From a virus, in IMG/VR virus record IMGVR_UViG_3300042922_000195, positions 1 through 39,869 of that record: a stretch of DNA of 39,869 bases; one strand, written 5' to 3'. The position numbers were made by a program, and so were the translations under genes. The notes under the pieces were generated by a model, which was not told the origin of the DNA, did not search any database, and saw only the letters and a list, made by a program, of their open reading frames with translations. This document shows positions 2,648 through 35,707 of this stretch, in pieces (position 1 is the first letter of the stretch; each line of letters starts with the position of its first letter).

Positions 2648-5600
2648 TCAAAATCCCCTCCATTAATCTTTCAATTTTATTCAAACGCACATCTTTAAGA
2701 ACATCACTTTCAACCAGTTTTCTTAAAAGGGGAATTAATGTAACCCATAGTCGGTCGTACTCAATCCCTTCAATTTCTCCAGTTTCATAATTAGTAGAAA
2801 TAAATGCATCAAGTCCAGCTCCACGTAAGTCTTCTGCGATGAGTCCATAGTGTGGATTTAATGTGATAGGGTCAATATCACACAATTCTCCTTCGGTCAT
2901 ATCTCTAGCAGCTAACTCTGAATTTGATTTATCAAACCAATACTTAGGTATGACAGTTAATAGTTTGAGTCCTAAGTCTTCCGCATCCATGATTTCACTA
3001 ATATTTAATTTATACTTGCTTGCCGAGGTTGAGCGACCTAATGTACCTGAAGATGTAATCGTTACGTTGGCAGCAGAGCTATAAGTTCTGTTGTAAACAG
3101 CAAGAGAGGCTATGGTCTTACCAACCCCGTCCAATCCAATTCTTAGATCAGCTGCGGAAGTTTTAGTTTCGTTGAAATAAATATTCGAAATACCAAAGTT
3201 GACGTCTGTTATAGCTCGGTTGTCGTTGATTTTAAATGAATCAATGCCTGTTGGAGCGTCAATACGATGAGTTCTTAGCCCGACATTATTTGGTGCTGAT
3301 ACATCTAATCCAGCAAAAGAACCTCTACCGTTAAAGTATGAGGTTCCATCAGAACGTATTATAGATTGAGATGCGCCGCCCCAGTCTTCATTACTCATAG
3401 TAATTGCATCTGAATTTATATCAATACGGTTCAATAACTTCCCGCTCGAGTTATATTGACGCATCTTTAAATAGTCGTTCCCATAAAAAGACTCAGCATC
3501 ATATAAATAAGAACCTCGTGTGTTGGAGCTAGTCACGTTATATATTTTGCCAGTAAAAACTAAGTGACGATGTGACAAGCGCCAGTCGCCTACAAACCAA
3601 CGATAATTAAACGCCGCTGCGTAACCATCGCCGAAATCGTAAGTCCCCATCATCCCTCTGTTTTCTGTGGCCATTGTGAGCCAACCAGTTACATTTAGCG
3701 TTCCTGTTTCTGTAGTTATCGCCGCTAACGAGTTTGCAACTATTTTACTTGCATCCAAGTTAATAATTTTGGCACTAGATATCGTAGCATCCGCAATTTT
3801 GGCATTAGTGATCGCTGCGTCGCCAATTTTCGCATTCACAATTGCTCCGTCTGCTATTTTAGCCGTACTAACTGCCAGATTTCCAATTTTTGCATTGGTG
3901 ATTGCTGCATCGCCTATCTTACCTTCAGTCACAGAGAGATTAGCTATTTTACCGTTAGAAACAGCAAGATCGGCAATGTGCGCTGTTTTGATAACTGCGT
4001 TTTCGATGTATGTCTGGCCAGTAATCTGCACTTTATTCCCTGAAATCAAAACGCCGTCTGTCGAGATATTGATTTGATTCACTACATCATTCTTTGAAAC
4101 TTTTAAATTGATAATATCCGACAACTGAGTTATTTGTGATGAAGTAATATTTGTGTTTGCTTCATAGACATAGAGCTCCCGAAGTCTTAGTGCTACACCA
4201 TTAGGAATCCAGAAAGACAAAGCTACCCCGTTCCCGTTTGCTTTAGCAGTTCCGGAAATCCACGCGGCCGTAGTGTTAGGATAACTAAACTTAACATTCT
4301 CTCCGCCAGAGAAACCCACCTCTATTTCACGATTTACAGCGCTAGCTCCTACATTGGCATATATTTTAATGTTATAAGTTTTTCCTATTACAATGTTAGG
4401 CAGAGACCAGTAAGCACGCTGACTGCCCGATGTGGCAGGATTTGAAAGTACAAGTCCATTCGCATCGTAAGAAGCAGTTATGTTAGCTCCTTCAAGGGTA
4501 GGCTTAGGTGTCTGCTTCTTGAAGTTGAAGTCAGAGAACCTGTTTGTTAGATCGATGATATCCGTTTGAATGTCTCCGACTGAACTCGTTAATCCACTCG
4601 CCGTAGCTTCAACTTGTGTTGCTTTGGTCAAAGCAGTGTTGGCGGTTGTCTCAACGCTTGATATTGTTGTTTTCAAGCCATTCGCTGTTGATTCGACCTG
4701 CGTTGCTTTAGTAAGTGCTGAATCAGCAGTCGTTTTTGTTGTTGCAATTAATTGTGTGTGTCCGTCAACTGTTTCCGAGACCTGATTTACTTTTGTAATG
4801 GTTTCAGTATTACTAGCTAGAGAACCTCTTTCAACTCCATATTGTATGGCATTATATGGCGGCAATTCCGTCATAAAAGGTTGTGTAGCCATGTATTCAA
4901 TTGTTCCTGAGCCCGCTTTATTAAATGGTGTCATTCTGAATGCCGTATAGGTTTGAGACCACTTCATGTAATACCAAACTTCACTAAGAGACTCGCTCGT
5001 GGTTACTTCTATAGCTACAAGATCACTAGCTGTAACTAAAGAGGTATCCGATATAGATATCTCGAACAAACTGTTTTGCCCCATAATTGCCTGTTGTTTG
5101 TGGTTTAGAAATATACGACCAAGAGTGGTTTTAGAATTTCCTGCTCCTGATCCAATAAAATCAATACCAACCCGAATATCTTGGTACCGAGCAGTAAGCT
5201 TAGTTTTTGCGATAAGAGTCCATTTTCTTATATTTGCATCTGCACTCGAAGAGGTAGCATAGCTTTGATCAGTGATTTTTGTTGCCATGTCCGTTTGTAC
5301 GCTAGATATAGTTCTACTTACCCCATCAACAGTTGTTTCTAGTACATTCGCCTTATTCAAAGCACTTTCTGCTGTTGTCGTTACAGTTGCCAACGTTTGC
5401 TTCTGCCCATCAACTGTTACAACTAATTCATTCAGTTTCTTCGTTGTACTTGTGGCAGTCGATTCAACATCAGTCAACCTGCCAGTTAATCCAGTAACTG
5501 AGGTTTCAAGCGTTGCTGTTCTGCCTTCCACAGCATTCGCCTTATCATACGCTTGGTTAGCCTTACTGCTGATTGATGATACCGTACCGTTGATAGTAGC

Positions 5601-32628: not shown

Positions 32629-34914
32629 CTAACCTCTCCATTCGTCAAAGTCTACTGAGAAATCCATAAACTTCTTGTCAAAGATAAATGGCGCAACTCC
32701 TGTCATGCCTTCTCTGTTTTTGGCTACATCACATCGAATCTTGCGACTGTCTTTATCGTCAGCTGAAAGTAAGAGTGTGACATTCGCATCTTGTTCTAAT
32801 GATCCAGACTCTTTCAAATCACTGAGCATTGGACGCTTGTCTTGTCGCTGCTCGACTGCCCTGCTTAACTGAGCTAGCAACACAATGGTGATTCCGTAGT
32901 CTGTTGTGAGCTTCTTCAACTCTCGTGTGACTTCGTTCATCACTTGACGCTCATTTTTCCGAGTATCGTTAACTGTGATCAACCCTGCATAGTCTACAAA
33001 CACGACATACTTCTTATCACTCAAACGCTGTTTAATTGCGTATTTAATATCGTTCAAGTTTGAGTACTCGGATGTATAGACACGTAGATCGAATGTATTT
33101 TTCATTTCCTCATAAGCTTTGCGTGCTTTGACTTTATTTTCCTGTGAAAGCTTGTCCTTCCCCACAAATAGAAGTGAGTTGATATGTGTCTCTTTTGAAA
33201 CCAGTCGAGTCATTAGCTCGTTTTGCCCCATTTCAAAAGTGAAAAAGTCGCACTGAACATTTTCGTTATCTGTAAACAATTTGTGCATGATATTTAAAGC
33301 AAACGCCGTATTGTGAGTAACTATAAAATCGTTGCAAAGATACAACTGATCTTTGTTTTCGACTGAGATACAAGTTACTTCTTCATACCCAACTTCTTTA
33401 ATTCCAGAAATTATCGATCTATTAAATTTCTTTCTAAATTTATGGTCACATTCCAAAAGAACTTTTTTCTTAGTTGGCGTTTTGAATAATTCAGACAACA
33501 TGCTAACTTCTGCCAGAACGGATATCTCATAACAAATATTTTTTCCTCTTTCATCTTTTCTAATCTTATTTTCATATCCAACACTAAATAGCAGTTCTCT
33601 TACTTGATAAGCCATTTTTCTAGAAGTAGTGTTATATTTTACATATGGACTATTCTTACTTATATACGCTGATCCATCTGTATCAAATAATCCTCGTAAT
33701 AGCTCGAGTCTTTCGCTTATACTTGATGTCATTAAATATTCAGGTATCTCTTTCAAATGAGAATATCTGATAACTTCTGGGATATCAGAAAAAACATCTT
33801 TTGTTTGTAAATACTTTTTATTCTTTTTGTATTCTTTCAACTCGAACACCCAACTATAATTTTTTAAACTTAATTTTTTTGGTTTTGTATTTGTTATTTC
33901 AGCTACTTTTTTAAATACAAATTCGTCACATCCGCTGATTGTTAGAGGTCTTTCTGACGAGCAGCCATCTCCCAAAAACACACCAATCAAATAAGGATCA
34001 ACAAACGACTTATTTTGAGGTTTGTATTCGACAGGACCATTTAAAGGTATTGAGTACCTAGCATGCTTTTTACCATTCACATCTACTCTATGCGTTCCAG
34101 TATCAAAAATTTCTTTTGTTGTTATTTCTTTTAAATTCCCTTTTGATGTATAAACACTCCAGATGTGATCTTCATCAACAATTGTCTTTCTTCCATCTTT
34201 TAAAGTGACTTCAAAAGTTTTCAAAGTACCTCTTGGATACACGCCAACTACCCTAGTAGGTTTTCCGTGTTGATCAAAAACATAGTCATTTGGTTTTAAA
34301 TCGCCAAATTTTACTTTACCTTTTGGTGTTGGTATTTCTAACCAATTCGGATGCCCTTTCCCTGTAGCTGGTCTTCCTGCTAAGACAATCAACTTGCCAC
34401 CAGTTAGCCCACCACCAAGAAATGCATCTAGCGGTTTGTATGTCGTTAGAACATCGCTTGGCTTATCCAAGTTCTCCGAGAATTCAGAGAAAGCTTTATC
34501 CAACTTGCCATCAGACTTAATATGGTTCACGTCACACTTTTCTTCTAGCAAGCGTGTTAACTTATCGCCATCTGTTTTAGAAAGCGTCTCAGCGTATTTT
34601 ATGGACGCTGAGTGTAACTTGCGATCAAGATAATCATTGTGTATGATCCGTGCTAGCTCTCTTTCGATTCCAAGCTGATTAGCAGAATTCTTCAAGATGT
34701 CTAATTCATCTACTGTCCCCGCTTTGAAGTAATCAATGGTTCGCATTTCGCGATGAACCTGTTCGGTGTTGTATTTCATTCCTCGCAGTCTCGTCATTGA
34801 CTCTACAATCAATTTGCACTGAGGACTTTCAAACCATTCCGAATCAATATCAATGTTGGTAATGATTGATGGATTGTTTAGCATTTCAGCCACAAGTTTC
34901 AACTCATTGTTCAT
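32629..34914 (-). CDS. dnaB: Replicative DnaB-type helicase interrupted by an intein
   Basis: A 761-residue precursor. Excluding the intein (residues 187-535) it is a 412-residue DnaB-family helicase: N-terminal helical domain, Walker A GRPATGK joined to TAFALN, then FFTFEMGQNELM, a Walker B region (VVFVDYAGLI), QLSRAVEQRQDKRPMLSDL and a final KNREG region. After splicing the Walker A reads normally. The helicase would unwind DNA at the fork with the replisome organizer encoded just upstream. ATG 34914 is chosen; AAAGGAGG lies 13 bases before it, a long spacing. It overlaps the upstream gene by 11 bases. Confidence 0.92.
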   Translation of the reverse strand: MNNELKLVAEMLNNPSIITNIDIDSEWFESPQCKLIVESMTRLRGMKYNTEQVHREMRTIDYFKAGTVDELDILKNSANQLGIERELARIIHNDYLDRKLHSASIKYAETLSKTDGDKLTRLLEEKCDVNHIKSDGKLDKAFSEFSENLDKPSDVLTTYKPLDAFLGGGLTGGKLIVLAGRPATGKGHPNWLEIPTPKGKVKFGDLKPNDYVFDQHGKPTRVVGVYPRGTLKTFEVTLKDGRKTIVDEDHIWSVYTSKGNLKEITTKEIFDTGTHRVDVNGKKHARYSIPLNGPVEYKPQNKSFVDPYLIGVFLGDGCSSERPLTISGCDEFVFKKVAEITNTKPKKLSLKNYSWVFELKEYKKNKKYLQTKDVFSDIPEVIRYSHLKEIPEYLMTSSISERLELLRGLFDTDGSAYISKNSPYVKYNTTSRKMAYQVRELLFSVGYENKIRKDERGKNICYEISVLAEVSMLSELFKTPTKKKVLLECDHKFRKKFNRSIISGIKEVGYEEVTCISVENKDQLYLCNDFIVTHNTAFALNIMHKLFTDNENVQCDFFTFEMGQNELMTRLVSKETHINSLLFVGKDKLSQENKVKARKAYEEMKNTFDLRVYTSEYSNLNDIKYAIKQRLSDKKYVVFVDYAGLITVNDTRKNERQVMNEVTRELKKLTTDYGITIVLLAQLSRAVEQRQDKRPMLSDLKESGSLEQDANVTLLLSADDKDSRKIRCDVAKNREGMTGVAPFIFDKKFMDFSVDFDEWRG
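33310..34356 (-). mobile_element. Class 3-like intein with LAGLIDADG homing endonuclease in DnaB
   Basis: A 349-residue in-frame insert between K and T of the Walker A motif. The first residue is Gly, not Cys or Ser, and the end is VTHN followed by Thr. Three residues fit the class 3 W-C-T set: Trp in DEDHIW (block B), Cys in EVTCISV (block F) and Thr in VTHN (block G). Homing endonuclease motifs are LIGVFLGDG and LLRGLFDTDG. The DNA is visibly more AT-rich than flanking dnaB, as expected for a horizontally acquired element. Exact splice borders are inferred from the helicase family. Confidence 0.92.
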
Positions 34915-35707
34915 AGGCTTCAGACAACCTCCTTTGAGATTCAGCAATTTCATCAGAGATTGAAGAATTAACTTGTGGGCGATACTCATTCAAGTAATCA
35001 TCAAACTTATTTCCAAAGAGTGTTGCTGGTCTTAGGTACTTATTCATTTCTTGGTTGTTCAACCATTGGTTTGTTTTCACATCAATTACTTTTTTGAAAT
35101 CATCTAATCGTTGGCCTTCGTTCCATCTTGCTTTGATTAGGTCTTTCCATTTCTGAGTAACTTTGAATGATTTACTTGTTGCTTCGTTCAAGTATTTGAT
35201 GATGTCACTATATGGTATTTTCTCTTTATCTATATCTCTTTCTTTATCTAATTCTTTATCTATATCTGCACCGTCACGTGACGTCACGCTAACGTCACGC
35301 TCTAATAGAAGCTTTTCTTGTTTCTTCCGTTCACGATATTCCCTGTTTCTTATGGCGTTTTTCAGCCTTACTTGTTCCATGCCTTCAACGTTTTGATGCT
35401 TTTCCCAATTACTAATTGCTATTAAGCCATCGTTGCTTAGATCGATCATGTTGAAACTAGCTAAGGTCGTCAGTGCTAATCTAACTGTGTTGACGTTTTT
35501 ACCAAAAAGGGTTGCTAGCATTTCTTCTGAATAGGGCATATTTCTTTGTATATAGATCAAGCCATCATCATTAGTCTTCCCTGCTAATACGAGAAGTCTT
35601 ATCCAAATGACTAAGATTGCATCTGACTCAGGAACAGCTTGAATTAACCTTATTTTTTCATCATCAAACATTGTCGTCTTAAGCTTAATCCAACTTATTT
35701 CTGCCAC
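34904..35707 (-). CDS. Phage replisome organizer (replication initiation protein)
   Basis: A 267-residue protein. Residues about 1-125 match the phage replisome organizer N-terminal domain: MAEISWIKLKTTMFDDEKIR and a winged helix ending in AISNWEKHQN. The middle is charged (RNREYRERKKQEKLL, DIDKELDKERDIDKEK), and the C-terminal part (about 175-245) resembles the conserved C-terminal domain of these proteins (KVTQKWKDLIKARWNEG, YLRPATLFGNKFDDYL). It would bind repeats in its own gene and load the DnaB helicase. GTG 35707 has GAGGAGGGA upstream. Confidence 0.88.
   Translation of the reverse strand: MAEISWIKLKTTMFDDEKIRLIQAVPESDAILVIWIRLLVLAGKTNDDGLIYIQRNMPYSEEMLATLFGKNVNTVRLALTTLASFNMIDLSNDGLIAISNWEKHQNVEGMEQVRLKNAIRNREYRERKKQEKLLLERDVSVTSRDGADIDKELDKERDIDKEKIPYSDIIKYLNEATSKSFKVTQKWKDLIKARWNEGQRLDDFKKVIDVKTNQWLNNQEMNKYLRPATLFGNKFDDYLNEYRPQVNSSISDEIAESQRRLSEAYEQ
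35224..35301. other. Candidate replication origin: two repeat sets inside the replisome organizer gene
   Basis: Three copies of CTTTATCTA (35224, 35242, 35254; the outer two extend to CTTTATCTATATCT) are followed by three copies of CGTCACG (35272, 35282, 35293), the first forming the palindrome CGTCACGTGACG. Origins within the replisome organizer gene are known in lactococcal phages and SPP1. Binding is inferred. Confidence 0.65.

Follow-up and report, generated by a model that had tools for sequence, protein, structure and literature searches.

A predicted class 3 intein with a LAGLIDADG endonuclease in the Walker A motif of a phage DnaB helicase

In a 39,869-nucleotide stretch of viral DNA (IMG/VR record IMGVR_UViG_3300042922_000195, positions 1 to 39,869; hereafter the window), a replicative helicase gene is interrupted within its Walker A motif by an in-frame insert that is best read as a full-length class 3 intein, with a splicing domain and a LAGLIDADG homing endonuclease, carried by an Enterococcus-type, probably temperate phage. 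We place the probability of this reading at about 0.93. It draws on the position and residues of the insert, on intein-free alleles of the same gene, on alignments, a tree and a fold model, and on a comparison of three loci that carry the same intein.

The insert and its host gene

The helicase gene is a DnaB-type ORF of 786 aa (32629-34989, minus strand), and the intein occupies its codons 212-560, in frame, between the Lys and Thr of Walker A (GRPATGK/TAFALN). The Pfam domain DnaB_C (PF03796) is interrupted at this point: its N-terminal end matches just before the insert, and the remainder matches the C-extein (4.9e-49; over 32656-33309, E 7.4e-48). DnaB site-b inteins are those that lie between the Lys and the Ser/Thr of the P-loop, and the preliminary description was right to place the insert in the Walker A motif of a DnaB helicase; the ends that it gave proved exact to the base. 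The GC content of the insert is 31.5%, versus 40.8% in the exteins. The features are collected in Table 1.

Table 1. Features of the intein-bearing helicase gene, in window coordinates
Feature	Position	Strand	Basis
N-extein, DnaB helicase; ends with Walker A GRPATGK (34357-34377)	34357..34989	-	ORF and sequence
Intein, 349 aa, GHPNWLEI...IVTHN	33310..34356	-	ORF and sequence; exactly this segment missing from empty alleles
Block B, DEDHIW, intein residues 61-66; His64 (B:10), Trp66 (B:12)	34159..34176	-	Sequence; His64 and Trp66 invariant in alignment A2
First LAGLIDADG motif, LIGVFLGDG, from residue 123; predicted catalytic Asp130	33964..33990	-	Sequence, alignments
Second LAGLIDADG motif, LLRGLFDTDG, from residue 219; predicted catalytic Asp227	33673..33702	-	Sequence, Pfam, alignment
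Block F, EVTCISV, residues 326-332; Cys329 (F:4), predicted first nucleophile	33361..33381	-	Sequence; invariant in alignments A1 and A2
Block G, VTHN/T, VTHN being residues 346-349; Thr347 (G:5), His348, Asn349, Thr+1	33307..33321	-	Sequence, alignment A2
C-extein, DnaB helicase, remaining ATPase domain and stop	32629..33309	-	Pfam DnaB_C

Intein-free alleles of the same helicase, which the preliminary description had proposed to look for, were found at ten IMG/VR loci (L005-L014). These are 94.7-96.0% identical in nucleotide sequence to the window exteins and align with them ungapped over 1239 bp, junction included. The ends of the insert are fixed by this gapless alignment across the junction, and the presence of the same helicase without it in ten relatives shows that the insert is not a chance feature.

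The listed start of the helicase ORF overlaps the replisome-organiser gene upstream (window 34904-34989). The true start is likely to be the ATG at 34914 (MNNELK), behind AAAGGAGG, rather than the listed one; the alignment of intein-free homologous alleles to the window helicase begins at MNNELK. Besides the replisome organiser, the neighbours of the gene encode an HNHc_6 protein, an ERF recombinase, a RusA-like resolvase and an Ant-type anti-repressor; together they mark the replication region of a phage that is probably temperate. The top nucleotide matches are to Enterococcus phages. The intein-bearing ORF is the one DnaB_C gene of the IMG/VR record.

Class assignment and the wider intein family

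Class 3 inteins are described (PMC3196547, PMC5222942, PMC7891396) as having a residue other than Cys, Ser or Thr at position 1, a Trp/Cys/Thr triplet at B:12, F:4 and G:5, a terminal His-Asn and Ser or Thr at +1. The window intein begins with Gly, has the triplet as Trp66, Cys329 and Thr347, and ends in THN followed by Thr; its block B has DxxH where class 1 inteins have TxxH. The class 3 type proposed in the preliminary description thus agrees with each of the published sequence marks, and the two LAGLIDADG motifs that it reported are intact, with Asp130 and Asp227 both kept and a Pfam LAGLIDADG_3 match of 7.9e-14. In an alignment of 25 sequences (A2: the window, one Enterococcus genome and viral contigs), His64, Trp66, Asp227, Cys329, Thr347, His348 and Asn349 are invariant. 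Across 94 aligned rows, which include class 1 controls and near-copies, B:12 is Trp in 87, F:4 is Cys in 91 and the terminal His-Asn is present in all. An AlphaFold2 model of the intein (pLDDT 92.5) matched PI-SceI over its whole length in Foldseek, with I-DmoI also among the PDB matches, and the class 3 DnaB inteins of M. chimaera (MchDnaB1) and M. smegmatis (MsmDnaB1) matched the splicing part.

Alignment with other inteins, which the preliminary description had named as a test that could refute its reading, favours class 3: in the resulting tree a branch with support of 99-100 sets the window intein apart from PI-SceI and two phage inteins with Cys1. The exception is the native class 1 gp41-1 intein, which nests within the wider group of the window intein, as a partial sequence covering about a third of the columns. 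Because PDB entry 6riz is an engineered form of gp41-1 (PMC7664689), the Trp/Cys/Thr triplet that it seems to show was set aside, and the native letters were used for the tree. In the partial-sequence tree native gp41-1 is placed beside a lineage of Lactococcus phage inteins, those of AM5 (L091:683-1744) and 949 (L092:680-1726). These are P-loop inteins with the block F Cys, THN and Ile at B:12; they are 82% identical, and residue 1 is Cys in AM5 versus Ala in 949, a pair that provides natural material for the boundary between classes 1 and 3. Among other phage P-loop inteins, six begin with Ser (L123, L132, L133, L134, L158 and L171) and two with Cys (L107 and L169), both possible class 1 nucleophiles, despite having the Trp/Cys/Thr triplet. 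Residue 1 is variable within the family and the division of the tree into class 3 and class 1 is not fully clean. The assignment of the window intein is unaffected by this variation because its own residue 1 is Gly.

A scan for relatives with alignment A1 returned at least 80 loci, 68 of them distinct. Among the matches listed, 60 inteins lie directly after the lysine of a GK-type P-loop, and the +1 residue is Thr in 50, Ser in 16 and Cys in 2. The nearest relatives among these matches (IMG/VR L105-L109) share the GK-type P-loop site, full LAGLIDADG motifs and the triplet, at 36-43% protein identity to the window intein; their hosts differ from DnaB, being AAA_24, clamp-loader-like, UvrD and AAA_30 proteins and one unassigned P-loop protein. 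The inteins that L090, L087 and L123 carry in DnaB-type helicases of other phages are more distant than these. With the nearest inteins in varied P-loop proteins and the DnaB-type ones farther away, these elements track the P-loop and not one gene. The inteins of Eggerthella phage LE2-3, Vibrio phage YC and L123 share with the window a DnaB_C host above the Pfam cut-off, the P-loop position, the triplet and LAGLIDADG motifs, and yet are about 29-32% identical to its intein and are not its nearest neighbours in the tree.

Named phages of Staphylococcus, Lactococcus, Lactobacillus and Enterococcus carry such P-loop inteins. Those of Staphylococcus CF5 (in an annotated RNA ligase), Lactococcus 949 and AM5, Lactobacillus LfeInf and Enterococcus EFP01 share the P-loop Lys/Thr or Lys/Ser site, the block F Cys and LAGLIDADG, but they lie in other host proteins, are 28-35% identical to the window intein, and in CF5, AM5/949 and LfeInf have Ile or Phe at B:12. 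The mycobacterial DnaB site-b inteins (M. smegmatis DnaBi1, 6bs8; M. leprae DnaB; M. chimaera DnaB1, 6rix) share with the window the host protein and P-loop position, the P-loop Ser/Thr at +1, the triplet and the DxxH block B (PMC6195587). They are remote in sequence (phmmer E about 2e-5 to 2e-4) and are described as lacking an endonuclease (PMC5050341, PMC6195587), whereas the window intein has one.

The preliminary description had presented class 3 inteins at this DnaB site as known mainly from mycobacteriophages, and had treated one from a low-GC Gram-positive source that has its endonuclease as unusual. Neither view is supported. DnaB site-b class 3 inteins have been described in mycobacteria themselves (PMC6195587), LAGLIDADG motifs are present in 82.5% of the 1701 class 3 inteins counted in the literature (PMC7891396), and the P-loop Lys/Thr junction has been called a "classic" intein site (PMC5050341), occupied in phages of the four Gram-positive genera named above. 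The phage family to which the window intein belongs is large and already known, and within it this intein is ordinary and well preserved. No paper on this Enterococcus intein was found in a literature of incomplete coverage.

Spread among helicase lineages

The same intein is present at two other loci, L003 (an IMG/VR contig of 4703 bp) and L004 (Enterococcus viikkiensis LMG 26075). Between the window and L004 the intein is 93.2% identical in nucleotide sequence and the exteins 74-75%, with 60-bp bins of the helicase ranging from 67 to 87%; between the window and L003 the values are 91.2% for the intein, 67-75% for the alignable extein parts and 48-80% for the bins. Identity falls sharply at both intein edges in each comparison. 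Inteins that are 91-93% identical inside DnaB genes that are about 67-75% identical show horizontal entry into at least three helicase lineages. No co-conversion tract beside the intein is visible between the intein-bearing loci. An intein-free near-sister of L004 also exists (L020), which is mostly 83-100% identical to it per 60-bp bin across the helicase gene. The suggestion that the intein may still home is judged probable, with indirect support from the identity pattern at the three loci and from the empty alleles.

Comparison of the window with L004 gave dN/dS values of 0.06 for the splicing part and 0.12 for the endonuclease part, so that the splicing and endonuclease functions both look maintained by purifying selection. 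In the sister copy at L003:807-1846 the first LAGLIDADG motif is changed from LGDG to LGGG, and a 7-bp deletion breaks the frame in the endonuclease region. This copy looks decayed, unless the changes are assembly errors, and barring such errors it suggests that inteins of this kind can decay.

In L020, around 4990-5010, the codons are altered exactly at the insertion site, reading GCTGCCGGGAAG (GRPAAGK) where L004 has GCTACTGGGAAA (GRPATGK). It is conceivable, though unlikely, that the intein is now actively homing among Enterococcus prophages and that the changed P-loop codons represent an escape allele. Of the 106 genomes in a survey of Enterococcaceae, one had the intein and four had a DnaB closely related to its host, numbers too small for estimates of frequency; plasmid records held distant relatives only.

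Proposed mechanism, alternatives and significance

The class 3 mechanism is known from tested inteins (PMC5222942, PMC3196547, PMC7664689, PMC6195587), and by analogy with these Cys329, together with His64 and Thr347, would attack the Lys-Gly bond to form a branch at block F. The N-extein would then be transferred to Thr+1, and cyclisation of Asn349 followed by joining of the exteins would restore Walker A as GRPATGKT, the Thr+1 becoming the Walker A threonine once spliced. The unspliced precursor would be expected to lack ATPase activity. Since its ATP site is interrupted, it is a reasonable inference, made already in the preliminary description, that helicase activity should need splicing. 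Homing would take place when two phages infect one cell or when one superinfects a lysogen: the free intein would cut intein-free dnaB at its P-loop codons, and the empty gene would acquire a copy of the intein through repair.

Other readings of the same insert differ in how it splices, whether it works and why it is kept. Were it of the class 2 type, Thr+1 would itself make the attack on the N-terminal junction, and the Cys of block F would be incidental. Gly1, as a non-nucleophile start, would also suit this route, yet class 2 inteins have been described solely from KlbA genes (PMC3196547), the host here is DnaB, the Trp/Cys/Thr triplet that class 2 inteins lack is present, and an incidental Cys would not be expected within a triplet that is invariant in all 25 sequences of A2; the probability of this route is close to negligible. 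It is somewhat less remote, though still very improbable, that the window copy is dead or degenerating in its splicing domain or its endonuclease, as the sister at L003, without the first LAGLIDADG Asp and with its deletion, might lead one to expect. In the window copy no catalytic residue is missing and the frame is open, its dN/dS values against L004 are low, and its host ORF is the sole DnaB_C gene of the record. Signature residues may persist in an inactive intein, but the apparent purifying selection and a probably essential host gene argue otherwise.

A further proposal, modelled on that made for mycobacterial DnaB1, is that regulation explains why the intein is kept: its splicing would be conditional, responsive to redox state or metal, and would time phage replication. 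The P-loop site and catalytic Cys are indeed as in M. smegmatis DnaB1, whose splicing stops under oxidation (PMC6195587). Control through a disulfide like that formed by the inhibitory Cys48 of DnaB1 was nonetheless ruled out, there being no equivalent Cys in the window intein, whose first Cys is residue 132. Close relatives manage without the intein, and its distribution follows mobility, so that a regulatory role is quite unlikely, if less so than a dead intein.

The window adds to the DnaB P-loop class 3 inteins, of which the best-studied are endonuclease-free, a member with a constrained endonuclease. Together with its relatives it provides a clean natural record of homing: one intein in three helicase lineages, two of which have precise intein-free sisters, and one copy that is possibly decaying. 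With such a record, homing, loss and any cost of the intein to the phage should be testable in laboratory Enterococcus strains.
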